Source: a virus
Strand: one strand, 5' to 3'
IMG/VR virus record: IMGVR_UViG_3300013286_000004
Coordinates: 1 to 35,819 of that record
DNA length: 35,819 nt
Shown here: piece by piece, positions 1,690 through 35,819 of the stretch
How the letters are laid out: each line of letters starts with the position of its first letter
How positions within the stretch are numbered: position 1 is the stretch's first letter
Translations under genes and position numbers: made by a program
Notes under the pieces: generated by a model
What the model was told of the DNA's origin: nothing
Databases searched by the model: none
Seen by the model: the letters and a program-made list of their open reading frames with translations, nothing else

Positions 1690-1911
1690 TTAACCCTTAT
1701 CTTGTTTGTTGTCCAGCTTGTCAAAAATCTTATTTAGCATATCTTTAATTTCTTTTGTATCGTCGCGGTAATCCTGCTTGGCAACGTAAACCAATGGTAG
1801 CCTACTCAGGTCTGACTTCAATTCCTGAACTGCTGACCACAGTTCGCGGGCGAACCATCCAGCAACAGCCAAAGCCGCGCCAAACAAGATGTTGAGTAGT
1901 TGTTGTTCCAT
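1690..1911 (-). CDS. Small membrane protein with cytoplasmic coiled coil
   Basis: This is a 73-residue protein starting MEQQLLNILFGAALAVAG. One transmembrane segment (about residues 5-22) is followed by a charged helical tail ending KIFDKLDNKQDKG. The ATG at 1909-1911 overlaps the TAA stop of the upstream ejection-type gene by one base (TAATG), so I chose it over an upstream in-frame ATG at 1965 that would extend far into that gene. Proteins of this shape in phage tail or lysis regions may be holin- or spanin-like accessory proteins. Nothing in the sequence settles which. Confidence 0.75.
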   Translation of the reverse strand: MEQQLLNILFGAALAVAGWFARELWSAVQELKSDLSRLPLVYVAKQDYRDDTKEIKDMLNKIFDKLDNKQDKG

Positions 1912-3719
1912 TATCGTCCTGCTGCTTGTTGTTGGGCTAGTGCCTCTTGGTTGGCTTGCAGCCACGCATCTAATCCGCTTTGCTGCTGGTTGGCAAGTTG
2001 GTTGGCTGCAAGTGTGCCCGTTTTGATACCTTGGTTAGCGCGTAACTGATTGGCTACAGCAGCCGCACCGGCAGGTCTAGATGTCAATGCAGCAGCCGCC
2101 AAGCGTTGGCCTGGTGCTGAGTACAGCGTAGGGCCAGCAAGCATTCCTGCGGCAATTGCTGGGTAACCAGCAGCGCCTGCGCCGCCCGATGCAATCAGTG
2201 CCGCTAGTGAACGATAAGGTGTGCCAGAGTCCGGCAGCTTGTTACCCAATATTGTTTTTGCTGGTTCAGATAGGTCTTGCATAAGTGCTTGACCTTTTGA
2301 AAATTCTGAATGATCCTTGCTTTTATCCATAGTCCGTACTGCGCTTTGCAATTGCGCTGGAGAAAAAATCCCCGCTTCAGCACCTGATAACGCTGCCGCA
2401 GCTTCAACTCGTTTAAAGTTAGCGTATCCAGTGTCAATTGCTTTTAGTTCTTTTGCAAACTGAGGATTGTTTCTGGTAACTAATTGACGAACTTGATCTT
2501 GCGCTTCTTTCAAGGCGTCACCAATCAATCTTTGATCTGAATCTGTTGATGCCGCAAGGCGACCAATTGTTTCTCTCAAATCACTTTGCACTTGTTTTAG
2601 GGTTTGCCCTGTAACAGCGCCTTGCCCTTGAAATTTATTTAGTACGTTGCCGTCTATCCATTTGTTAAAAAAGTCTTTAGAAGCCTGGTTGATTGCTCCA
2701 TTATCTACCATGTTTCTTAAATTAGAAATTGCAGTTTGAAACGGTGTGTCTTGCAAAACCGTCATTTTGGGAAGCAATGCTCCATATGCATCGTCCAGTT
2801 TTTCCGAAGCAAAACGTATGGCATCACGGCCCTTAAAGTCAGCAGGCAATGTTTCGTTAATTGGTGTTAACGCCCTATTGATTGCTGCACGATTTACATT
2901 TTCTGCGGCTCTTGCTTGCGCTGACTTGATAAAGTCACCAATCACGGGAATGCTAGTCAATCCTTCTTCTGCGCGTTTAAAGCCACCACCTAAAATCTGA
3001 CCAACGGTAGGCGTAATGCCTTCAGCCATCAATGCCCTAACGCCAGGGTCAACCATTGGGCTAACAATTGCTGCGGCAGGACGGGTAAGCATATTGATTG
3101 AATTAGTGCGCTCACCGCCTCGCACCATTGCGTTAGCAACTGCATTTGACCTAGCGCCCATGTTGGCGGCTCTAAGTACAGCACCACCACCGCCTAACAG
3201 CGCAGATACATCGCTAATAGGACGAAATGGGTCTTCCTCCATTGTTTTTTGGAATTCAGCGCCAGAACTGTAAGGTCTAACAAATTCTTGGCCCGCAACG
3301 GTTGCCATTGTTTGCGCCCGCTGCAATGCTGCCGGGTTACCTAACGGGTTGTATGGTGATGTCTCAATAGCCGTCAGACCGCGCTGCACCGGTTCTGGCA
3401 GCGCCTTGTACACACCGCCCGCCACAATGTCGCCAATGCCTTGCGCGGTCTGCAAAGGGTTTGATACGGCATCCACCAAATTGCCAACCGTGTTTTTATA
3501 AAGGCTGGGTAATGCACTTTTTAAAGTTTGCGAAACGTCATAGCGGCCGGTTGGCATTCCTTCAATGGGTGCAGCTTTCCCTCCATCAATAGCCGTCACA
3601 GGCTTACCAAAGTCTTGTTGGGCGCGTTGTTGCACCGCATCAGGCGTTAAATCATCAGGCGCGTTTTGATAAACGTGAGTTGTACCGTCTTCAAAAGTGA
3701 TTGTGATATTGCGTGGCAT
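1911..3719 (-). CDS. Large internal/ejection-type virion protein (gp16-like position)
   Basis: This is a 602-residue protein. An N-terminal segment (ITITFEDGTTHVYQNAPDDLTPDAVQQRA) resembles a short domain often found at the start of phage structural proteins. A long, mostly helical Ala/Gln/Asn-rich body follows, with a hydrophobic Ala/Gly stretch near residues 505-530 (LAALIASGGAGAAGYPAIAA). The C-terminus is Gln-rich. It is the last of three large proteins in the place where P22-like phages carry gp7, gp20 and gp16, which are ejected with the DNA. Its ATG overlaps the upstream stop (TAATG at 3717-3721). The ejection role is inferred from position, size and composition, without a recognised catalytic motif. 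Confidence 0.8.
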   Translation of the reverse strand: MPRNITITFEDGTTHVYQNAPDDLTPDAVQQRAQQDFGKPVTAIDGGKAAPIEGMPTGRYDVSQTLKSALPSLYKNTVGNLVDAVSNPLQTAQGIGDIVAGGVYKALPEPVQRGLTAIETSPYNPLGNPAALQRAQTMATVAGQEFVRPYSSGAEFQKTMEEDPFRPISDVSALLGGGGAVLRAANMGARSNAVANAMVRGGERTNSINMLTRPAAAIVSPMVDPGVRALMAEGITPTVGQILGGGFKRAEEGLTSIPVIGDFIKSAQARAAENVNRAAINRALTPINETLPADFKGRDAIRFASEKLDDAYGALLPKMTVLQDTPFQTAISNLRNMVDNGAINQASKDFFNKWIDGNVLNKFQGQGAVTGQTLKQVQSDLRETIGRLAASTDSDQRLIGDALKEAQDQVRQLVTRNNPQFAKELKAIDTGYANFKRVEAAAALSGAEAGIFSPAQLQSAVRTMDKSKDHSEFSKGQALMQDLSEPAKTILGNKLPDSGTPYRSLAALIASGGAGAAGYPAIAAGMLAGPTLYSAPGQRLAAAALTSRPAGAAAVANQLRANQGIKTGTLAANQLANQQQSGLDAWLQANQEALAQQQAAGR

Positions 3720-5515
3720 TACCAGTTACTCACGGTTGCGGGTTTATTAGCTTCTTTAGCTTTAGCGCCTGGTCGCATTGCAGCTTTGACTTCTGGGCCT
3801 GACGCAAGAGCAGCATTCATTTCTTGTTGAATAACATTCAAAGCAGCGTTGATTTGCCCTTTGGACATTCCACCATTAAGAATTTCGCGTGCGTGTTCTT
3901 TATCAGATACCGTTGGCGCCCCTTTTGGATTGATTGCGCGAGCGTAAGTGTTAACCAATGCGTTCATGGATGCGGCCATTGCTACCACATTTGGATCACC
4001 AGACTTTTTAGCTACAAAATTTCCTGCTTCATTAAGAGTTGGGTAATCTGTCGGGTTTACTTTGGCAACGTAAGATTGCAGAGTTGGAATCATGTTTCTT
4101 GTTTCAACTGCTGCCATGTTGACATTGGCAATCTGCGTTCCCACAGCTTTAGCGCCAGCAGCATTTCCTGCTTGCTCAACTTTATTGCCTGCCACGGTAG
4201 CAGCAGCTTGTGCAGCAGTTTGACCACCGACCATTGACAATTCACTAGCGCGTGAAAGTATTTTTGATCTAGCGGCAGCAGCCATCGGCCCCATTCCAAG
4301 CGGAGGAATAGTGCCTGTCTGCATATACGTTTGCGCCATGAAATCAATGGTGTTTGGATCAAAATTACCAGTTTGCATTTCGGCATTAAGTCTTTGTTGG
4401 GCAATATTCACCATATTTTGGTGAGCCGCTAAGTTACCTTGAGAAATTCCAAGGTTGGCTTCTCCAAAATTTTTCCCGGTAAGTGGGTTTCCTTTATCAT
4501 CAATAACAGGCGTAGAAGTTCCATTTTTGGGATTAAATGCTACAAATGTAGTAATTCCTTTATCACCAATGACTTCTTTTATTTGCTCGTCTGGTGTTGC
4601 TGTAAACACAACATTACCATTAGGCCCAACAAGATTTCCATTAACAACGTGCATCACCGGCGGTTTAACAAGTTCCTTAAATTGTTCTTCTAATAATTTA
4701 CGTTGTGCCAACCATCCTTTTGCCTCACCATATTTTCTGTCTCCAGCATTTATTTGAGTCATTAAATTAGCTGATGTTGGCATTGCTGATGGTGCAACTG
4801 GTGCAGCTTGCTGTGCAACCATTGCATTAGCAATAGGTGCCGCTACAGCCGTTGGTGCAAGCGCGTTACCTTGAGGTTGTATCGGTTTTGTTTGCTGACC
4901 AAAAGACGGAATAGGGTTTACTACTACGTTTGCTTTTGCACTTTGGTAATCTTCTGGGCTAACTTCAACACCATTGACTACATATCGTGCGCGACCAGTG
5001 TTATCTTTAGTCACAAACATTTCTGGTGCAGCTTCTGCTTTAGGCACAACAGCAGGCGCAACAACAGGTGCAACAGCAGGCGCTGGCTCACCACCGGATT
5101 GGTCTTTCAAAAATTGCGCTTGCTGTTTATATGTCATCACTTTTTGTGATGCATCAAGCAAATGCCCGCCAACAGCTTGAACTTGTGGATTAGGATGCAT
5201 AAGCATTTGCTGCGCTGCTTCCACAGGGTCTTGAGGCGCTTCTGGATGCTCCGCAGCTTTAGTCATTACGCTAGTAATAAAATCTTGCGCTTGTTTTGCT
5301 TGGTCATATGTTAGCTGTGCTGATGCCGCCCTAGTCTGCGCTTCCTGCATCCGATACGGTGCCATTTGCTGATGTTCTTGCATTTGCATCTGTGCAAGCT
5401 GGTTCTGCGTGTCGGCAGACGTTAGCTGCGCCAACTGGTTATAGCTGGCAATAGGGTCGCGGAACTGAACCTGTAAAGGCTGCCCGCTGAGTGCTATGCG
5501 TGTATCTAAGGGCAT
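3719..5515 (-). CDS. Large Gln/Ala-rich ejection-type virion protein (gp20-like position)
   Basis: This is a 598-residue protein. The N-terminus (IALSGQPLQVQFRDPIASYNQLAQL) is followed by long predicted helices rich in Gln, Ala and Met (QNQLAQMQMQEHQQMAPYRM). A low-complexity Pro/Ala/Val segment lies near residues 145-165 and another Pro/Ala segment at about 215-245. Helices resume in the C-terminal half (FVAKKSGDPNVVAMAASMNALVNTYARAIN..). The start follows a GGAACACC ribosome site, 8 bases after the preceding gene. Size, composition and position between two other ejection-type genes suggest an internal protein delivered into the host with the DNA. Confidence 0.8.
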   Translation of the reverse strand: MPLDTRIALSGQPLQVQFRDPIASYNQLAQLTSADTQNQLAQMQMQEHQQMAPYRMQEAQTRAASAQLTYDQAKQAQDFITSVMTKAAEHPEAPQDPVEAAQQMLMHPNPQVQAVGGHLLDASQKVMTYKQQAQFLKDQSGGEPAPAVAPVVAPAVVPKAEAAPEMFVTKDNTGRARYVVNGVEVSPEDYQSAKANVVVNPIPSFGQQTKPIQPQGNALAPTAVAAPIANAMVAQQAAPVAPSAMPTSANLMTQINAGDRKYGEAKGWLAQRKLLEEQFKELVKPPVMHVVNGNLVGPNGNVVFTATPDEQIKEVIGDKGITTFVAFNPKNGTSTPVIDDKGNPLTGKNFGEANLGISQGNLAAHQNMVNIAQQRLNAEMQTGNFDPNTIDFMAQTYMQTGTIPPLGMGPMAAAARSKILSRASELSMVGGQTAAQAAATVAGNKVEQAGNAAGAKAVGTQIANVNMAAVETRNMIPTLQSYVAKVNPTDYPTLNEAGNFVAKKSGDPNVVAMAASMNALVNTYARAINPKGAPTVSDKEHAREILNGGMSKGQINAALNVIQQEMNAALASGPEVKAAMRPGAKAKEANKPATVSNW

Positions 5516-5523
5516 GGTGTTCC

Positions 5524-6315
5524 TTATCCGTAATAGCTAGGCGCAATTGTTGGTGCGCCGATGTAACCGGATGGCGTTGACCCAAATCCTCCAGCGCCAC
5601 TTTGTCTAATTAAATAACTATTTAATAAATTGTTTTGCTGCTGATTGTTCTGATAACCAAGGTAATTTGACAATCCGCTATTAATGGCGTTGGACGCTCC
5701 CATGTAACCCGATGCTCTAGCATTGGCCGCGCCCATGTAACCTTCGGCGGTAGCGTTAGCGCCTTGCATTCCGTAGTTGCCTATGTTGGATGCATTGATT
5801 TGACCCGCAGCGCCAATAGTGTTAGCAGTCGTTTGGCCCATGCCAGTTAACGATTGCAGAGGGTTTAATGTTGCTGCACGCTCTGTTTGGTAACGATTAA
5901 AAGCATTGGTGTACTCTTGCGAACCCATGTCCTGGCCGTAACGGGTAGCAGCTTTCAATGCACTACCAGAAATCAGTCCACCGCGTGCAGCCGCAGACCG
6001 ATCCAATGCCTTTTGGCCTTCCGACAATCGAAAAGCATATCCTGGGTCAGCTTGAAATTGCTGTTGACTAAACGGGGTGTAGTTGGATGCTTGCACCAAA
6101 GCGGGCAATGCGTTGACACCAGCTTGGTAGAACGGCTGCTGACGCTGGACGTTTTCCTCGTATTGCTTTTGCTGCAAGTCGGCTGCATAGCGAGAAGCGG
6201 AAGATTGCGCTTCGGCGGCTTGTCGTGCAGCGTCGGATTGGCCTTGCGCCGCTTTATTGGCAGAATAACCACTTATAACGGCGCTACCTACAATGGCTGT
6301 TGCTACTGCTGACAT
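5524..6315 (-). CDS. DNA-transfer/ejection-type protein (gp7-like position)
   Basis: This is a 263-residue protein. A short hydrophobic N-terminus (AVATAIVGSAVISGYSA) leads into an Ala/Gln-rich helix with alternating charge (residues about 20-60). A conserved-looking block follows (QPFYQAGVNALPALV, FQADPGYAFRLSEGQKALDRSAAARGGLISG), then Asn/Gly-rich repeats toward the C-terminus. This architecture is common in podovirus and siphovirus DNA-transfer proteins. The start uses an AAGGAAG site that lies inside the end of the upstream cupin-SET gene, with a 13-base overlap. Confidence 0.8.
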   Translation of the reverse strand: MSAVATAIVGSAVISGYSANKAAQGQSDAARQAAEAQSSASRYAADLQQKQYEENVQRQQPFYQAGVNALPALVQASNYTPFSQQQFQADPGYAFRLSEGQKALDRSAAARGGLISGSALKAATRYGQDMGSQEYTNAFNRYQTERAATLNPLQSLTGMGQTTANTIGAAGQINASNIGNYGMQGANATAEGYMGAANARASGYMGASNAINSGLSNYLGYQNNQQQNNLLNSYLIRQSGAGGFGSTPSGYIGAPTIAPSYYG

Positions 6316-7178
6316 ATTGCTTCCTTAAATTCAACGCCAGACAATGCAAGCGCCTGACGGTAATCAATTGTGACCTCGGTTCCCATGCTGCCACCTTTGC
6401 AACCTTCTATGTCAACCAACGCAACCAAATCAATATCACCATTTGCCAGTAAAACCATCTTGGCATTCGGGTGCGCTGAGTGATTTGTGTAACGTCCTGC
6501 TTGAGAACGCTTGCCATTTATTCTAGCAGGGCACACTATTTGACCGGCCTTAACCGGCGCGGTTATAAATAGTCCCTTACCCTCAATTGGTGAGATGGCA
6601 ACCCTTGTTAGTGAACTGTTAACCCAAGCAAAATCTGATTCGTTTTCAGATTGTTGGCGGGCGACTTCATGCGAAATTCCGCAATCAGCAATCAATTTCA
6701 GATAGTCTTCACGGTCAAACAACCGAGAAACGCTTTCTACTGCAAACTTGCTTGCTTGGTCATCGTGCCAATCCCCTGTCTTTTCAACAAATAGCGCCTC
6801 TACAGCATCGGCATTTTTAAGGTCTGTCGAATAGATGTTTTGCCAAACCATATCTTCCATGACGTAGCCAATCTTTCGGCCAGCCTTACCCGTAAAGATG
6901 ACGGGTGCAGACAATATTTGCGTGCTTCCGTCATCGTTGGCAATCATCACCTTACCGCGCAACATTACATTGAGATGCTCAAACCGCTGTTTGTGGCCGA
7001 TTGCCAAAGTACCGGCAGGCATAAACACCTCGCGGATGCAGACACCAGGGCCAAAATGATGCACAACAGAGCACTCTGCTTGCGGCATTTGCATCAAGGT
7101 TTTCTCTGGCTGATCTAACGCAAGCAATTCACGCAACGCCATTGCGCCGATGTTTTCTTGTGCCGCTAAATCACTCAC
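6303..7178 (-). CDS. Cupin-SET domain fusion protein (putative protein lysine methyltransferase)
   Basis: This is a 291-residue protein starting at a GTG that overlaps the upstream stop (GTGA). Residues about 40-118 form a cupin-like beta barrel (IREVFMPAGTLAIGH, EHLNVMLRGKVMI), with H62, E67 and H68 where cupins bind metal or substrate. Residues about 190-275 carry the SET-domain order. SPIEGKGLFI (196-205) matches the N-terminal SET glycine motif, TNHSAHPNA (231-239) matches the NHS..PN pseudoknot motif, and EVTIDY (268-273) matches the conserved E-(L/V)-T-x-D-Y with the catalytic tyrosine. SET proteins usually transfer methyl from S-adenosylmethionine to lysine. The domain calls are from motifs. 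The target, and whether it is packaged, are unknown. It lies between tail and ejection genes. Confidence 0.85.
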   Translation of the reverse strand: MSDLAAQENIGAMALRELLALDQPEKTLMQMPQAECSVVHHFGPGVCIREVFMPAGTLAIGHKQRFEHLNVMLRGKVMIANDDGSTQILSAPVIFTGKAGRKIGYVMEDMVWQNIYSTDLKNADAVEALFVEKTGDWHDDQASKFAVESVSRLFDREDYLKLIADCGISHEVARQQSENESDFAWVNSSLTRVAISPIEGKGLFITAPVKAGQIVCPARINGKRSQAGRYTNHSAHPNAKMVLLANGDIDLVALVDIEGCKGGSMGTEVTIDYRQALALSGVEFKEAICQQ

Positions 7179-7510
7179 GACACTTCCCTCCCGCTGACGC
7201 GCATATTGATGGCGCTGGCCGCGCTGGCAATTGTGGAGATAAACCCGCCAGTTGGCAAGATGTGCCCCACCAACTCTGGAAAGATGTAAGTTTCGCCTGC
7301 CGTCAGCGACTTGGCTTTAACAATTAGGTTGCTGTCGGATGGCGTGTAGGTCTGGGTGACCAGGTTGACGCTGATGGTTGCCGTGGATGCGCTAATGTTG
7401 GTGGCCGTGAACTTGTCAATGATAGTCGTGACATTGCTGGCCGTGTATTGCGTTGTCTGCGTGTCCGCAACAAACTTGGCTGGCACTAGATTTTTGGCGG
7501 TGACGGTCAT
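7175..7510 (-). CDS. Small beta-rich virion protein
   Basis: This is a 111-residue protein. The central pattern IIDKFTATNISASTATISVNLV is followed by SNLIVKAKSLTAGETYIFPELVGHIL and ends with SAASAINMRVSGREVS. It is a beta-sandwich type pattern seen in small tail or decoration proteins. The protein at 9028-9399 has a similar plan (TNVTGTTATITVSI, then a hydrophobic strand and SSAIEMVATYEAIS), so the two may be distant paralogues. Its ATG overlaps the upstream stop and its stop overlaps the GTG of the cupin-SET gene. No exact function is claimed. Confidence 0.82.
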   Translation of the reverse strand: MTVTAKNLVPAKFVADTQTTQYTASNVTTIIDKFTATNISASTATISVNLVTQTYTPSDSNLIVKAKSLTAGETYIFPELVGHILPTGGFISTIASAASAINMRVSGREVS

Positions 7511-7737: not shown

Positions 7738-8090
7738 GGTGTCACCTCTGTCCAGGACAATGTTTCCTCGTCCCAATCATACATTTTGCCGTCTGTAGGC
7801 ATAGGCGTTGGCGGCTGCCATAGGCAAGTGTTTTCGTTCAACGTCCAGCTATTGTACGGCTTTGGCGGTATAAACGCATCCCTTTGGGCATCGTAGGTGT
7901 AACCGATGCCAGCGTAGTTTTTGCGGAATGGCGTGCCACCAAATTGATGAACCCCGCCGCGAGTGTTGTAACTAGTTTTCCGATACACATCCCCTGTACG
8001 GGCGATTAGTTCATTTTCATCATCCTCGTCTCGGCCCACCGTGACAAAGATGACAATGTTATTTTTATCAAGTTTGGCAAAATGGCTCAT
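7734..8090 (-). CDS. Phage tail-associated protein of a widespread small family
   Basis: This is a 118-residue protein. MSHFAKLDKNNIVIFVTVGR is followed by TSYNTRGGVHQF, FRKNYAGIGYTYD, DAFIPPKP, SWTLNENTCLWQPP and YDWDEETLSW. This series of aromatic and Pro motifs recurs in a family of small virion proteins in unrelated tailed phages, including phages of aquatic bacteria. Its structural role is not known to me in detail. ATGA overlaps link it on both sides to other tail genes. Confidence 0.85.
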   Translation of the reverse strand: MSHFAKLDKNNIVIFVTVGRDEDDENELIARTGDVYRKTSYNTRGGVHQFGGTPFRKNYAGIGYTYDAQRDAFIPPKPYNSWTLNENTCLWQPPTPMPTDGKMYDWDEETLSWTEVTP

Positions 8091-9028
8091 GTAAATGTCA
8101 CCGTTTCACTTGTTGTAGATGTAGCTGTTACCTTGTAAATTTTGTAGCCAGTTACAGTTGTAGGAGTTTGAGTGACACCACCAGAAAATGTTGCTGTATA
8201 TGTATCAGGTATTTTGATAATTACTACGCCAGAACCCCCAGCAGCGCCAGACCTGTCGCGGTCTCCACCACCTCCCCCGCCTGTATTTGCCGTTCCTGCT
8301 ACTGCTGCACTGCCACGGCCACCAGCACCGCCACCACCAGCACCGCCAGAACCTGGTGTTACATTTCCAGTCCCGCCGCCGCCACCAGCATAAGTAACAC
8401 TGGTTCCTGTTATGGATGAAGCTGTGCCAGCACCGCCAGTACCGCCTGTTCCAGAACCGCCTGTGCCGCCTACGGCGTTTGCGCCGCCACCACCGCCAGA
8501 ATCAAAAGAACCTGATGCCCCTGCACCTCCATTATTTCCTTGTCCTGAAGTTCCAGCGCCACCTGCTGATGGATTTGCGCTATTTCCCCCGCCACCGCCA
8601 GAACCGCCTGCTTTTCCTTGACCATAAGAAGCTGTAGTTGCTCCAAAAGAGCCGCCACCACCGCCACCTGTAGATGTTATTGATGAAAAAACAGACGCGC
8701 TGGCGCTTGTTCCAGAATTATCCCCCGAACCTGTATAAGTTCCTCCAGCGCCACCAGCGCCAACAGTTACTGTATATGCAATAGATAAACCAACTGTAAA
8801 ACTAGACGCGGTTCTATATCCACCAGCACCACCACCACCGCCTTGCCAGCCGCCGCCGCCACCACCACCAGCAACAACTAAATACTCAGCCAAAAAACTT
8901 CCCGCTACAGGCCACGCGCCTGCTTGTTTCCCCTGCATTTGCTCTGTTTGCGTCCATATACCAGACGCCGCAGAACTGCTGGTAGTAGCAGCCGTAGCAG
9001 ACCGAATGGAACCCTTAAAACGGTTCAT
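8087..9028 (-). CDS. Glycine-rich tail fibre/adhesin protein
   Basis: This is a 313-residue protein. The N-terminal 45 residues (FKGSIRSATAATTSSS, TQTEQMQGKQAGAWP) probably dock to the tail. Residues about 50-265 are dominated by runs of glycine alternating with Ala, Ser and Thr (VAGGGGGGGWQGGGGGAGGY and similar), with strand-like segments AEYLVVAGG and GVVIIKIPDTYTATF flanking it. The layout matches the glycine-rich domain of phage adhesins, where polyglycine helices pack into a receptor-binding tip. The proline-rich reading frames on the opposite strand are an effect of these GGN codons. Its ATG overlaps the upstream TAA. Confidence 0.85.
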   Translation of the reverse strand: MNRFKGSIRSATAATTSSSAASGIWTQTEQMQGKQAGAWPVAGSFLAEYLVVAGGGGGGGWQGGGGGAGGYRTASSFTVGLSIAYTVTVGAGGAGGTYTGSGDNSGTSASASVFSSITSTGGGGGGSFGATTASYGQGKAGGSGGGGGNSANPSAGGAGTSGQGNNGGAGASGSFDSGGGGGANAVGGTGGSGTGGTGGAGTASSITGTSVTYAGGGGGTGNVTPGSGGAGGGGAGGRGSAAVAGTANTGGGGGGDRDRSGAAGGSGVVIIKIPDTYTATFSGGVTQTPTTVTGYKIYKVTATSTTSETVTFT

Positions 9029-9399
9029 TAGCTGATAGCCTCATAGGTGGCGACCATCTCAATGGCGCTTGATGTGCCTGCGGTCACCACAATGGATTGC
9101 GCTTCGCCGACATAGATAGACGTGCTTTTGTCTACCACCATCAAGGATGAATTCCCAGGAACGCTAATCTGGTACGCAAGCCGGTACGCCGTGCCACCGC
9201 CGCCTGTTGCGCTGTTGATGGACACCGTGATAGTCGCGGTAGTTCCTGTGACGTTGGTTGCCATGATTGTGCCGACCTTGTTGACCGTGCCGGTGGCAGG
9301 CGTAAGCCCCGTCCAAGTGGTAGCCGATGTGCCAGTTGGAATTAGATACGCCGTGTTGCCATAAATGGCCGTGACGTTGACGATATTCGGGTTTGCCAT
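9028..9399 (-). CDS. Small beta-rich virion protein
   Basis: This is a 123-residue protein rich in Thr, Ala and Val (NIVNVTAIYGNTAYLIPTGT, IMATNVTGTTATITVSI, RLAYQISVPGNSSLMVVDKS, SIVVTAGTSSAIEMVATYEA). The pattern fits a single beta-sandwich domain of a tail or appendage protein and resembles the 7175-7510 protein. It sits between the large fibre and the glycine-rich adhesin, so it may be part of the same appendage. The TAATG overlap with the next gene implies coupled translation. Confidence 0.82.
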   Translation of the reverse strand: MANPNIVNVTAIYGNTAYLIPTGTSATTWTGLTPATGTVNKVGTIMATNVTGTTATITVSINSATGGGGTAYRLAYQISVPGNSSLMVVDKSTSIYVGEAQSIVVTAGTSSAIEMVATYEAIS

Positions 9400-9408
9400 G
9401 TTCTATCC

Positions 9409-12174
9409 TCAGAATCCAAAAATCATCGCCATTGCAATGCTCTTGCCGGTTGTAACGCCTGTCACCGACGTGGTGATGACCAAAGCCTCAACAATGTCGC
9501 CAACAGAGCAAGCCACGCCCAGCGTGAAATCTGTCCCACTGGTGGCCGTGTAGTCCGATGTAGCCAACAGCACGCCGTTGACGTAAACCTGCAAATAGCC
9601 CACCGCGTAGGTGACGGTAAACACTGTTTGGCTGGCTGTAGCGGTAAACGATGTGCGAGTGTAGGCGCTTGCGCCTCCGCTACCGCTGGCGTTGATGGTG
9701 ACCACGCCTGTGCCGCCAACAGGCGAGATGGTGACGTTAGTGCCCGCCACAATCTGTGACACGCCGCCAGTGGCCGCAGCCCAGGATGCTGTAGTGCCGT
9801 TGGATGTCAAAACGTAGGTACTAGCACCAATACCCAATCGAGTGGCGCTGTTTGTGCCGTTTCCAAGAATTAGGTCGCCAGTCGTTGTGATAGGCGATAA
9901 GGCATTAAATCCAGCCGATGCCGTAGTCTGACCAGTGCCGCCGTTGATGATGGCAACAGTGCCCGTTACGTTGGCGGCAGTGCCCGTGGTGTTTTGATTA
10001 AACGTCGGCCAGGTAAACGTGCCGGTGCTGAAATTGCCGCTGATAGGTGTGCCAAGCGTTGGGGTGACAAACACCGGCGAAGTCGCCAAAGCAATTACCG
10101 AACCGCTGCCGCTAGTGGTGTACGAAGTGCCCCAAGCGGTGCCCGTGGAATTGGGAATTCCTGCGCCTGGATACACCATTGGCGAAGAATTGTTGATGGT
10201 GATGGCCGCAGAACCATTGTAAGTTGTGCCCGCGCTAAACGATATGCCAGTGCCCGATGTCAGCGCGTTGGCAACAGAGCCAGCAGAACCCGTGGTGTTT
10301 TGGTTCAGCGTAGGCACATCAACGGCTTGTATCGTGTTCATCACAACGTTTGTGCCATTGCCCCGCAAGTACGATCCGCTAGTGACCGCGCCAGCAAAAG
10401 CGTTCATTGCCAATTGCGCGGTAGTCTGGCCCGAGCCGCCATTGGCAATAGCCACCGTGCCGGTCACATTGGCTGCATTGCCTGAGATATTGCCGCTGAC
10501 CGCGCTGCCCGAGATGGCAATTGACGTGTTGGTGACGCTGGTGACTTGGCCTTGCGCGTTGGTGACAAACACGGGAACTGCGTTGGCCGAACCGTAAGTG
10601 CCTGCTGTGCCAATGTTGGTAATAGAAAACTGGTTGGTGGATAGGGTTAACCCTGTTCCAGCGGTGTAAGTTTGCACAGCAGCAAATTGCGTAAAAACCA
10701 GCGCGGTCGTGCCCACCGTGATAGGTAGCGCAGTTTGTTGCACCCAAGACGTATTAGCATTGACCGTACCGGCCAACACCAGCATCAAATCACCTTGGTC
10801 AATCTCGTTGGTGCCTGATCCGCTGGTGTCGTAATCTGTAGCACGGGTCAGAATGTAAGGTAGAAGTACAGTACCAGCTTGCGTAAGCGTATATATGCCA
10901 TTGTTTGCGCCTGTTGCTTCATTCTTAATCAGAATGCGTTTGCCTACATCGGTTGACAAAAGAACGTAGCTGTCAACAGTCAACGTGCCGTTGCTGCTAG
11001 CCGTCAGGGTTGCGCCTACGCCGCTTGATCCATTGTTGTAAGTATTAGCGGGTGACAGCGCTGCGGTAGTAGCGTAGTTACAAGCCGCGTGGAAGTTGAT
11101 GCCAGTAGCAATGCTGTCGGCATAAGACTTGTTGACAATATCCGTGCTGGCGCTTGGCGCAGTTGAGATAGTTCCGGTGGTCAACGTGATTGATGTAATG
11201 TCGGTGTTTGCGCCACTAGCCGCTGCGCCCAGACTTGTGCGGGCCGCGCTTGCCATAGTTGCGTTTGTGCCACCGTTAGCCACAGCCACTACGCCAGTGA
11301 CGTTGGCCGCTGTGCCGGTAGTGTTTTGGTTAAGCGTAGGCACATCAGCGGCCACAATGGCAGCCAGGGTGGCATTTGTGCCGTCAGAGCGTAGGTAGCG
11401 TCCCGATGTTTGCGTGCCGGTTAGGGCGGTAATGGCTGCTGCGGCTGTCGTTTGACCTGTGCCGCCGTTAACAATCGGTAAGGCGGTGCCTGAGTAGCTG
11501 ATTGCCAGCGTTCCGCTGGTGGTGATGGGGCTACCGGCAACCGATAAGAAAGCTGGGACAGTGGCCGCAACGCTGGTAACCGTGCCGGTTGCAGAACTTG
11601 AGTTAATCGTTTGATTAGGCCAAGTTCCGGTGATGGTGACGTTGGTTCCGGCCACCAAGGCAGGCGTTGCTGTGCCAGTGCCACCAGATGCCACTGCAAG
11701 CGTGCCGCCCAAGGTCACGGCACCCGTGGTAGCCGTGGCGGGTGTAAAGCCCGTAGAGCCGCCGCTAAATGAATTAACGCCCGACGTGGATAGGACAACA
11801 TATTTGACGTTGCCCGAGTTATCCACAACCTGCCAGGCGCTACCGTGGGTGTATGTCAGCTTTTCGCCTACCAGCAGGGTAACCGTGCTGATTAGGTACG
11901 GCGTAGACGTATCCAGCAATTTCACGGTCACCACTTGAGACACCGTATCGGTGTTTAAGATGGTCACCATGTCAATGTCGCGGATGGTTGACGCGGCAGG
12001 CGCGGAGCAGATAATGACCGCTGTAGTGCCGTTGGAATTGGTGAGTTTTGTGCCGCCCAAATAGGTTGTGGCGGTCTGGTCAGAATAGGACACGACAGCC
12101 TGCAAAGGCGCGGTGGCTTGTGCCCCGCCCAAATACAGCGCAAGTGACCGATTTACGGTGTCGAGTCTAATCAT
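9409..12174 (-). CDS. Large repetitive tail fibre protein
   Basis: This is a 921-residue protein. The N-terminal ~130 residues (MIRLDTVNRSLALYLGGA.., then a beta domain ending GSAWQVVDNSGNVKY) probably attach it to the virion. The rest contains repeated fibre units with the core NGGTGQTTA or NGG(T/S)G, often preceded by ANVTGTVAI, with GNGTN...LGIG further on. Repeats are seen near residues 235, 300, 580 and 755. A non-repeat block lies near residues 350-490 (NKSYADSIATGINFHAACNYATT..). The C-terminal ~90 residues (TSFTATASQTVFTVTYAVGYLQVYVNGVLL) form a likely receptor-side or capping domain. The repeat unit is shared with the upstream 173-residue protein. Confidence 0.88.
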   Translation of the reverse strand: MIRLDTVNRSLALYLGGAQATAPLQAVVSYSDQTATTYLGGTKLTNSNGTTAVIICSAPAASTIRDIDMVTILNTDTVSQVVTVKLLDTSTPYLISTVTLLVGEKLTYTHGSAWQVVDNSGNVKYVVLSTSGVNSFSGGSTGFTPATATTGAVTLGGTLAVASGGTGTATPALVAGTNVTITGTWPNQTINSSSATGTVTSVAATVPAFLSVAGSPITTSGTLAISYSGTALPIVNGGTGQTTAAAAITALTGTQTSGRYLRSDGTNATLAAIVAADVPTLNQNTTGTAANVTGVVAVANGGTNATMASAARTSLGAAASGANTDITSITLTTGTISTAPSASTDIVNKSYADSIATGINFHAACNYATTAALSPANTYNNGSSGVGATLTASSNGTLTVDSYVLLSTDVGKRILIKNEATGANNGIYTLTQAGTVLLPYILTRATDYDTSGSGTNEIDQGDLMLVLAGTVNANTSWVQQTALPITVGTTALVFTQFAAVQTYTAGTGLTLSTNQFSITNIGTAGTYGSANAVPVFVTNAQGQVTSVTNTSIAISGSAVSGNISGNAANVTGTVAIANGGSGQTTAQLAMNAFAGAVTSGSYLRGNGTNVVMNTIQAVDVPTLNQNTTGSAGSVANALTSGTGISFSAGTTYNGSAAITINNSSPMVYPGAGIPNSTGTAWGTSYTTSGSGSVIALATSPVFVTPTLGTPISGNFSTGTFTWPTFNQNTTGTAANVTGTVAIINGGTGQTTASAGFNALSPITTTGDLILGNGTNSATRLGIGASTYVLTSNGTTASWAAATGGVSQIVAGTNVTISPVGGTGVVTINASGSGGASAYTRTSFTATASQTVFTVTYAVGYLQVYVNGVLLATSDYTATSGTDFTLGVACSVGDIVEALVITTSVTGVTTGKSIAMAMIFGF

Positions 12175-12177
12175 AAT

Positions 12178-12699
12178 TTACCCATGTGCTGCCGCAAAGG
12201 CATAAATGGCTGGCCCGCCTGTGCCGCTGCCCGCCGCCCATGTCGCCGTAGTTCCGTCAGATGTCAGGACAAGACCTGCCGAACCAATGCCCAGCCGGGT
12301 CGCGCTGTTAGCGCCATTGCCAACAATTAAATCGCCGGTGGTTGTGATGGGCGATAAAGCATTGAATGCGGCCGTGGCTGTGGTGGCACCTGTACCGCCG
12401 CTAGGAATGCCTAAAGTGCCGCCAAGGGTAATAGTGCCACTTGACGTTATTGGGCCCCCTGTGGCCGTTAAACCAGTGGAACCGCCCGATACGTTGACCG
12501 ACGTGACTGAACCCAGGCTTTGCGAGGCAGGTGGAACAAGCTGCAAGTCATCCAAAGAAGTCTGGTTGTTGCCGCCGCCTGTCAGTGCAAACAAGTTTAA
12601 AAAAAACCGATACCACTCACGCGACATCAATCCCGTGCGTTGGTCAATAAAATCAACCCTTGAACTAGGGATGCTGGTTATGTTGAGTTGATTAGGCAT
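12178..12699 (-). CDS. Tail fibre-type protein with virion-attachment N-terminus
   Basis: This is a 173-residue protein. Residues 1-45 (MPNQLNITSIPSSRVDFIDQ, LMSREWYRFFLNLFALTGGG) form a compact attachment segment. Residues about 65-160 carry the fibre repeat GGTG(A/Q)TTA..AFNALSPITTTGDLI.GNG.NSATRLGIG, nearly identical to a unit at about residues 755-800 of the large fibre downstream. It starts inside the last codons of the gp10-like gene. It may be an adaptor on which the longer fibre assembles, but this is inferred only from the shared repeat and position. Confidence 0.83.
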   Translation of the reverse strand: MPNQLNITSIPSSRVDFIDQRTGLMSREWYRFFLNLFALTGGGNNQTSLDDLQLVPPASQSLGSVTSVNVSGGSTGLTATGGPITSSGTITLGGTLGIPSGGTGATTATAAFNALSPITTTGDLIVGNGANSATRLGIGSAGLVLTSDGTTATWAAGSGTGGPAIYAFAAAHG

Positions 12700-14134
12700 T
12701 TGTCGGACTCAAAATCAATTCAGCGCCCATAATGGCAACTTTGACAGGATCGGTGCCAGACACTTCGTAAACCCTGTCGCGCAGCTTAAGCGTCATGCCC
12801 AGCCGCCGCCAAAAAACGCGCTGGTAATACGCGCCAATTTTACCCATTGGCGACCAGTGTTCGTTACTCCAAGTGTGGCCGCCGTCATCCGACCAGCGCA
12901 GCATAGCCTGCGGGTCGGAGCCTTGTCCGTCATTCAATCCAACGCCTGACTCACAATTGAGTTGCAATGTGTGGTGCGCGGTGCGTTTAAGATTGTTTTG
13001 CCCGCTAGGCAACGCACGCCAAGAGCGCAACCATTTCTGAGTGTCGCCGTTGTCTGAATAGACATCTAAACTCATTTTGTAGATGTTGCCATTCTCAAAA
13101 TCGCCGACAACGGTATTACCAAGGAAATTGCATTGGCAGTTGCTGCGGTGGCGGGTGAATGCGCCTTTAAGCCACCCAGCACGCTCATGCCAGGCTTGCG
13201 TGGAGACATCGTAAACCCAAGTGGCATTGCCCGTAGGAAATGTCAGCACATAGAAAGCGTGACCTTCTTGCTGGTAGGTGTACGCAATAGCGTCAGAAAT
13301 GTCGCTGTATTGAGCAATTGCGTACTCAATAGCATGGGTGGATACCCGTTGGCCGGTGTAGCCGTTGGCGCGGTAGACAATTCCCTGACCGCGTGCATCC
13401 GTGCCCAGCCAGAACAAGCCGTTGTCCAGTTTGGCAATTGAGAATGCCGCAACGCAACCAATCTCGTTGAAAGCGCCTTGGATGCGGGTCAGAGGAAAAT
13501 CAGCTAATCCAGCGTCGTACCAGACTTCTACTGAGTCAGTTCCAAACAACCAGGCTTCGCGGTGGTCAACAATAATTCCGACCAGCCCGTCGGGTGAACC
13601 CTCGGCGCTGGCAAAATCTAGCGGGTTAACCGATAGGCCATCCAATAAAGCTGTCACCCATACGCGCTGGGAATCTGGCTCGTTGAATACAAAATAGCCG
13701 TCTAGGTATCCAACCGTCACCGCGCCTGGAAAATCAGGGTCGGTGATTTGCTGGAATACGTTGGTGACCTCGTTGTAAATGTAGCTGTCGGGGTTGCAAG
13801 CAAAAAATAGCTGCGTCCCGTTGTCCGCAATGGACACCGGCCCCGTGCCTGACACTGTGCCCAATAAGACCGGATCGCCGGTCAGGGTGGACATTTTGTA
13901 AACGCTGTTTCCCGACACAACGTAGAAATCGCTGCCGTTGGTTTGGTGCGCCCACAAACCGCGAATTGGGCCTGTGCCCACAGACTGTAGATATTCCAAT
14001 CCAGGGGCGCGGTTGAGGAAAGCGGCAGTCTGCCCGTTGTCCGGTGTCATCTCCGGAAACAGGTTGACCATCCGATTGTCCGCAGCGTTGATACTGCGGG
14101 CGACGTAGGACGCGCCGAGTATCGGTGTTTGCAT
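12692..14134 (-). CDS. P22 gp10-like packaged DNA stabilisation / tail hub protein
   Basis: This is a 480-residue protein. The N-terminus (LGASYVARSINAADNRMVNLFPE) and the following WAHQTNGSDFYVVSGNSVYK, DGYFVFNEPDSQRVWVT, VDHREAWLFGTDSVEVWYDAG and GCVAAFSIAKLDNGLFWLG segments form repeated beta-propeller-like blades. They are typical of the P22 gp10 family, which plugs the portal vertex and bridges to the tail (P22 gp10 is about 472 residues). It follows directly after the gp4-like gene with a one-base overlap, the same order as in P22. Confidence 0.88.
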   Translation of the reverse strand: MQTPILGASYVARSINAADNRMVNLFPEMTPDNGQTAAFLNRAPGLEYLQSVGTGPIRGLWAHQTNGSDFYVVSGNSVYKMSTLTGDPVLLGTVSGTGPVSIADNGTQLFFACNPDSYIYNEVTNVFQQITDPDFPGAVTVGYLDGYFVFNEPDSQRVWVTALLDGLSVNPLDFASAEGSPDGLVGIIVDHREAWLFGTDSVEVWYDAGLADFPLTRIQGAFNEIGCVAAFSIAKLDNGLFWLGTDARGQGIVYRANGYTGQRVSTHAIEYAIAQYSDISDAIAYTYQQEGHAFYVLTFPTGNATWVYDVSTQAWHERAGWLKGAFTRHRSNCQCNFLGNTVVGDFENGNIYKMSLDVYSDNGDTQKWLRSWRALPSGQNNLKRTAHHTLQLNCESGVGLNDGQGSDPQAMLRWSDDGGHTWSNEHWSPMGKIGAYYQRVFWRRLGMTLKLRDRVYEVSGTDPVKVAIMGAELILSPTNA

Positions 14135-18267: not shown

Positions 18268-18636
18268 TTATGCCAAAAAGCGTAGTTTATACAGGGTACG
18301 CAGATAAATTTCAATGATATTGTCAATCAACTGCTGCAAGGACATATCAGTTCTGTCCACAACTTCATACCGGCATTTCTCAATGTCATCCAATTGACCT
18401 TGCAGAAAATCAATGATATTTGCCGTCTTAGTGGCCGAATGCAGCGTAATTGGCCCCATTAAACCATGCCGCCCTTGGTAGGCTTCGGCAAAATCGTCTG
18501 CCGCGTCAATGATGCGGTCATAAAAGATGTTCAGCGCAACGTGCTTGGAATAGCTGCGCGTATTCAGATGGACGCTGTGCGCCACATCACGGGCGAGGAA
18601 TAGCATTCCTACGAAATCTGCTGCTTTGTACATCAT
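18268..18636 (-). CDS. Dps/ferritin-like small helical protein
   Basis: This is a 122-residue all-helical protein. The first helix has the pattern ARDVAHSVHLNTRSYSKHVALN, then YDRIIDAADDFAEAYQG. The spacing of His, Asp and Glu resembles the ferroxidase region of Dps proteins (H...H, then D and E one helix later). The second half is another helix pair (ANIIDFLQGQLDDIEKCRYEV, LQQLIDNIIEIYLRTLYKL). I believe it matches a phage family of unknown function (DUF5856-like), but this is from memory. It starts in an ATGA overlap with the portal stop. Metal binding is inference. Confidence 0.8.
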   Translation of the reverse strand: MMYKAADFVGMLFLARDVAHSVHLNTRSYSKHVALNIFYDRIIDAADDFAEAYQGRHGLMGPITLHSATKTANIIDFLQGQLDDIEKCRYEVVDRTDMSLQQLIDNIIEIYLRTLYKLRFLA

Positions 18637-35350: not shown

Positions 35351-35819
35351 TTAGGCCCATGAGCCGACGTTGGTGGCGCTACCAGATGCGCCAATTGGGT
35401 AAATTTTCATGTAGCTATTTGTAGTTGTTGTGTACGCCCCACCCGGAGCGACTGATAACGTGTATTGCGGAATGAACGTACCGCCAGCATTGATGGAAAC
35501 CATGCCAGCGCAAAAAATGCTGTTGTACAAATTAGTACCTCCAACGGTGGTTAGTGTAGTTGCACTTGCAGTTTGAATAAAACCGTTAGAGCCATTCCCC
35601 GAATTAAACTGCACGAAAGATGTTCCGCTAGCGTTGAGCAAAACATCGTATGCAATGCTGTTCAAAGTTGCAGTTCCACCAAATCCAATTTGAAATGCAT
35701 GGCTAGTTGCACCTGCGGTCTTAGAAAATGCTGCAACCATTTCAAACGCATACACCGTGCTTGCAGAAAGTGTTACGCCAACACCCAATATGCTTTGGGC
35801 TGTAGTGACATTAGCGCCA
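35351..35819 (-). CDS. Tail protein, C-terminal part (gene continues at 1-527 across the circular junction)
   Basis: This is the C-terminal portion of the 290-residue protein that begins at 527. The stop TAA is at 35351-35353, and reading is open to the end of the window and in frame with 1-527 when the 123-bp repeat is collapsed. It includes YAFEMVAAFSKTAGATSHAF, QIGFGGTATLNSIAYDVLLN and MKIYPIGASGSATNVGSWA at the end. The beta-rich composition and tail neighbours fit a tail appendage protein that resembles the adjacent 211-residue protein. Confidence 0.85.
   Translation of the reverse strand, partial: GANVTTAQSILGVGVTLSASTVYAFEMVAAFSKTAGATSHAFQIGFGGTATLNSIAYDVLLNASGTSFVQFNSGNGSNGFIQTASATTLTTVGGTNLYNSIFCAGMVSINAGGTFIPQYTLSVAPGGAYTTTTNSYMKIYPIGASGSATNVGSWA
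35697..35819. repeat. Right copy of 123-bp terminal direct repeat
   Basis: Identical to 1-123. Collapsing the two copies gives a circle of 35,696 bp with an intact tail gene across the join. Confidence 0.95.

Follow-up and report, generated by a model that had tools for sequence, protein, structure and literature searches.

Why does a short-tailed freshwater phage carry, within its block of structural genes, a gene that joins a cupin to a SET domain? Most known SET methyltransferases come from eukaryotes, eukaryotic viruses and scattered bacteria. We addressed this question in IMG/VR virus record IMGVR_UViG_3300013286_000004, analyzed as one whole stretch of 35,819 nucleotides (the window). 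Its termini (1-123 and 35697-35819) are identical over 123 bases, so that a complete genome, either circular or terminally redundant, is probable; no second contig was found in the virus record. The cupin-SET ORF is a real gene rather than a chance reading frame: it is a single open frame of 291 codons starting with GTG, and its product is matched over the full length by the phrog_34170 profile (7e-84).

Table 1 Features of the cupin-SET gene and its surroundings, in positions of the window.
Feature	Position	Strand	Remarks
Cupin-SET fusion gene	6303..7178	minus (7178->6303)	291 aa, GTG start, phrog_34170
Cupin domain	6774..7079	minus	residues ~34-135; family of phrog_12032/phrog_24280
Helical linker	6618..6773	minus	residues ~136-187
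Short SET domain	6339..6617	minus	residues ~188-280
GCxGG glycine-rich insertion in SET	6390-6404	minus	residues 259-263
DNA ejection protein gene, downstream	5524..6315	minus	phrog_598, P22 gp7-like; 13-nt overlap with cupin-SET gene
111-aa gene, upstream of cupin-SET gene	7175..7510	minus	4-nt GTGA overlap
Second gene of putative ejection operon	3719..5515	minus	598 aa; P22 gp20-like by position only
Third gene of putative ejection operon	1911..3719	minus	602 aa; P22 gp16-like by position only
Gp10-like stabilization/head-closure protein	12692..14134	minus	Rhodoferax phage P26218 ortholog noted as gp10-like
Large variable fiber genes	8087-12699		

The gene neighborhood agrees with the initial annotation, which had placed the gene between tail and ejection genes without naming a strand (Table 1). 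Judging by the 4-nt and 13-nt overlaps, the 111-aa gene, the cupin-SET gene and the ejection gene are probably translationally coupled. The proteins of the gp7/gp20/gp16 operon form the DNA ejectosome, and the smallest ejection protein is the conserved pore former (PMC8954989); in the window, neither the 598-aa nor the 602-aa ORF found a match in the PHROG search. On the upstream side, the conserved block extends to the gp10-like gene. Among the fiber genes, positions 9409-12174 encode a 921-aa fiber-like protein with repeated IANGGTGQTT-type motifs, pieces of which also occur in adjoining genes, and right after the portal gene a 122-aa protein (18268-18636) matches phrog_858, 'starvation-inducible transcriptional regulator' (3e-23). 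The CQQ/CLG end of the cupin-SET protein was ruled out as a C-terminal sorting signal, as it is a by-product of the overlap with the beginning of the downstream gene.

The fusion of a cupin to a SET domain, first proposed from motifs in the translation, was borne out by AlphaFold2 and Foldseek as well as by profile searches. All of the motifs that had been named are present (SPIEGKGLF 196-204, TNHSAHPNA 231-239 and EVTIDY 268-273, plus H62, E67 and H68 in the cupin half), and the SET residues comprise GxG at 200-202, R219, R224, AGRYTNHS at 227-234 and Tyr273 at the catalytic position. In an AlphaFold2 model built from 34 homologs (mean pLDDT 83, pTM 0.54), a SET fold was predicted; cupin and SET domains are each predicted well and their mutual arrangement is uncertain, with low confidence at residues 262-264 in the region of the GCxGG insertion. 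Searched against the PDB with Foldseek, the model matched cupins (1.7e-5), the MLL1 SET domain (6.6e-5) and vSET (1e-4, TM 0.64 by target length). The window protein fell slightly under the Pfam SET cut-off of 22.4 bits (21.2 bits, 4e-4), which was exceeded by the proteins of phage PH1 (3e-8) and Paraburkholderia ferrariae (1.8e-8), by relatives L105 (2.8e-6) and L018 (6.4e-6), and in six of eight further phage records, with a single SET per genome. A profile of the SET part of the family matched MLL1 at 3.9e-7 across both halves. The SET half represents a genuine SET subfamily, unusual in its architecture. A segment resembling the linker also lies N-terminal of SET in the stand-alone Paraburkholderia protein.

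The same fusion was found in phages P26218 and PH1 and in IMG/VR relatives, of which successive searches gave 14, then 51 and then 466 stretches, the last possibly including some with only the cupin in common. The tyrosine and the Asn-His pair that the initial annotation had singled out are invariant in homologs: G200, G202, N232, H233, N238 and Y273 show no variation among the 50 family members compared first, and each of 88 distinct SET-bearing proteins keeps the Asn-His and Tyr motif and carries GxG, RFxNHSxxPN and ELTxDY in that order. In SET enzymes, conserved residues of this Asn/His/Tyr type contact S-adenosylmethionine (SAM) and the target lysine, and sequence comparison indicates that the residues at these positions in the phage SET are under constraint. 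In two groups, dN/dS was 0.046 and 0.036 for the SET part, near the values for the cupin part (0.028 and 0.042). The cupin-SET gene is functional and under purifying selection.

The motifs of the phage SET are much more closely spaced than those of other SET domains. The distance from GxG to the Asn of NHS is 29 residues in 82 of the 88 proteins (the other six gave a count of 43, probably where the pattern caught an earlier GxG) and likewise in PH1 and P. ferrariae, compared with 62 and 63 residues in two ordinary bacterial SET proteins in the same scan. Between GxG and NHS, MLL1 and EZH2 are longer than the phage SET by ~34 residues and vSET by ~24. The absent segment is SET-I, which helps to form the substrate groove of SET protein-lysine methyltransferases. 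The GCxGG insertion before the Tyr strand is found in 85 of 88 members and is absent in PH1 and P. ferrariae. The signature ARIxGxRTxAGRYxNHS, common to these short forms, identifies them as a single SET subfamily. A search of 84,980 bacterial and archaeal genomes yielded matches at only eight loci; six are related to the short form and lie in prophage-like or metagenome-assembled contigs, and the remaining pair encode SETs of the ordinary type.

The cupin is widely distributed among podophages; its gene mostly sits immediately before the gp7-like gene and as a rule has no SET attached. With tblastn it was found in 58 phage records, and the SET part in eight of them, representing five distinct phages (zth2-2, MW202557/MW202655, MW202744, P26218 and PH1). 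The cupin-only proteins (~140-190 aa) occur in P22-like phages, Autographiviridae and BPP-1, and no SET motif was found on the same strand in 31 IMG/VR cupin-only relatives. Among cupin-only loci with enough sequence, a gp7-like ORF was directly next in 25 of 28, a longer out-of-frame ORF having been picked by the script in the remaining three; at SET-bearing loci the phrog_598 ejection gene was next in most of those compared. A mixed cupin alignment had no conserved stretch; one cupin-only relative was itself predicted to be a cupin (Foldseek 9.8e-7, core pLDDT 93-98). In BPP-1 the ejection gene is not a neighbor of the cupin gene bbp23, and a GNAT acetyltransferase gene, bbp24, lies directly upstream of it (L146:4480-5399). 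A literature search for Bbp23 returned unrelated papers only.

How often have the two domains come together? In the cupin tree, SET-bearing rows fall in separate places, with a main SET-bearing clade of 40 rows (100/99) and PH1 grouping with BA3 and VvAW1 (100/99); a single clade of fused proteins was rejected (p-AU 0.012). In P. ferrariae, cupin and SET are separate adjacent genes with a 4-nt overlap, and its cupin is a long branch with an uncertain place in the tree. The phylogeny places the joining of SET to the cupin in no fewer than two distinct cupin lineages, with separate adjacent genes as a third case; the PH1 fusion could also stem from recombination between phages instead of a new fusion. 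That cupin and SET were repeatedly brought together, by fusion or recombination, argues for a joint function. The P. ferrariae pair (L110:5078-6525) lies between replicative-helicase-like and integrase-like genes (named by eye from translations), apparently within an integrated element, with no capsid genes nearby, and no viral relatives of the stand-alone SET were found.

The computations establish the domain identity, the fixed place of the gene, purifying selection, invariant residues at the catalytic positions, the absence of SET-I and more than one joining of SET to the cupin, and we infer catalysis, docking by the cupin and a phage-protein substrate. We tentatively favor, at somewhat less than an even chance, a SAM-dependent lysine methyltransferase of a phage virion or ejection-module protein. 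The cupin-SET protein would be a two-domain factor of the assembly stage, its cupin half docking to an assembly partner that belongs to the ejection/tail module and its SET half, a compact SAM-dependent enzyme, methylating one or more lysines of such a protein in the infected cell. In other SET enzymes the SET-I segment shapes the peptide groove; with SET-I lost, placing the substrate would fall to the cupin and the assembly partner. We count in favor of this role the GNAT beside the BPP-1 cupin, another protein-modifying fold adjoining the cupin. Conversely, a substrate groove without SET-I could be non-functional, which would speak against a methyltransferase.

As to the substrate, a search for a conserved lysine in the gp7-like ejection protein was negative (the best column reaches 42% in SET-bearing phages), which makes this protein unlikely as the common target. 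The target may be the product of the translationally coupled upstream gene (7175-7510). This 111-aa protein has conserved lysines K6, K12 and K33 in SET-bearing phages; K12 is present at 43/45 SET-bearing versus 3/7 cupin-only loci and K6 at 39/45 versus 1/5, in a comparison of related rows with few, non-independent cupin-only sequences. We treat this protein as a lead to a partner or substrate, not as evidence for one. A wider proposal, which we consider doubtful, is that podophages evolved a dedicated lysine methylation of virion proteins, with a SET-I-less enzyme plugged repeatedly onto a conserved ejection-module cupin and modifying a tail or ejection component that DNA delivery requires. 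A conserved SET family of podophages, tied to an ejection-module protein, would suggest that methylating proteins is one step in assembling the virion or ejecting its DNA. Such a SET-I-less form would also bear on the minimal fold needed for substrate recognition.

The beta-clip fold, to which SET belongs, also has structural uses in phages, and the SET half may instead form a non-catalytic knob, rich in beta structure, on a protein of the tail or of assembly, with SAM binding possibly retained. The absence of SET-I, the position of the gene within the structural block and the PHROG tail annotation of the cupin would all fit such a scaffold. However, a scaffold would not need Asn, His and Tyr together, and these are kept in 88/88 proteins, among them the divergent proteins of PH1 and P. 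ferrariae, which leads us to regard a non-catalytic SET half as unlikely.

We think it more unlikely still that the protein is packaged and then delivered into the host to methylate a protein there, with defense evasion or takeover as possible purposes. SET effectors of intracellular bacteria, which act on eukaryotes, provide a general precedent, and the gene is coupled to the ejection operon. Yet most phages with the cupin are without SET, so that delivery is not the basic role of the cupin. Our literature search for virion proteomics came up empty, as did a word search of the Shewanella phage X14 paper, and the conserved pore former is the smallest ejection protein, not cupin-SET (PMC8954989).

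The PHROG names of phrog_12032/phrog_24280, 'short tail fiber' and 'tail fiber adhesin', would place the cupin in the virion and not among assembly factors, and suggest a receptor-binding short tail fiber with SET as a swapped adhesion tip domain, as might the differing C-terminal lengths among cupin relatives. We judge this improbable. The names are probably based on fold similarity, and a search for an experiment behind them found none; the cupin gene is grouped with the ejection genes and not with the variable fiber genes, and SET and cupin rank with the parts that vary least (dN/dS 0.03-0.05), unlike receptor-binding tips. Least probable of these readings is a metal enzyme in the cupin half, acting in one pathway with the SET domain: within the main family H62 and Q64 are invariant and H68 is found in 47/50, at the spacing of cupin motif 1, but E67, one of the residues that the initial annotation had called metal-binding-like, varies among the 50 members (E/D/K/T/Q/R), and PH1 and the cupin-only relatives keep neither H62 nor Q64, so that a conserved metal site with E67 is not supported and a metal site does not define the family; the His of the second cupin motif is likewise absent from the cupin sequences compared.

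Isolated SET annotations in phages exist, as the initial annotation had stated: the MW202744 protein is already annotated as 'pbcV-1 histone H3-lys 27 methyltransferase structure' and A0A6J5PTS6 as 'SET domain containing protein'. The accompanying statement that no described phage system of the cupin-SET type was known also held among the open-licence papers searched, which yielded no description of the fusion. The closest known proteins are the phrog_34170 members P26218 gp30 and PH1 ANY29560, full-length homologs with both cupin and SET, of which gp30 occupies the same place before the ejection gene; both are annotated as hypothetical, with no SET or methylation role, and the P26218 record cites similarity to a tail fiber protein. 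BA3 gp7, VvAW1 gp4 and BPP-1 Bbp23 (phrog_12032/phrog_24280) have a homologous cupin without SET, and the cupins of these families mostly occupy the corresponding position ahead of the ejection gene. In P22 and T7 this position, next to the gene for the smallest ejection protein and upstream of it, is taken by gp14 and gp13, described as head morphogenesis proteins or probable scaffolds; no sequence relation to the cupin is detectable (hhalign probability under 1%), so that they have only the gene slot in common with it. The podophage cupin, so far named by analogy only, becomes a study target in cultured phages such as P26218 and PH1. Beyond phages, the SET half has the GxG, NHS and ELTxDY motifs and the SET fold in common with PBCV-1 vSET (A612L) and with MLL1 and EZH2, and differs from them in being without SET-I, in its fusion to a cupin and, mostly, in the GCxGG before the Tyr strand.
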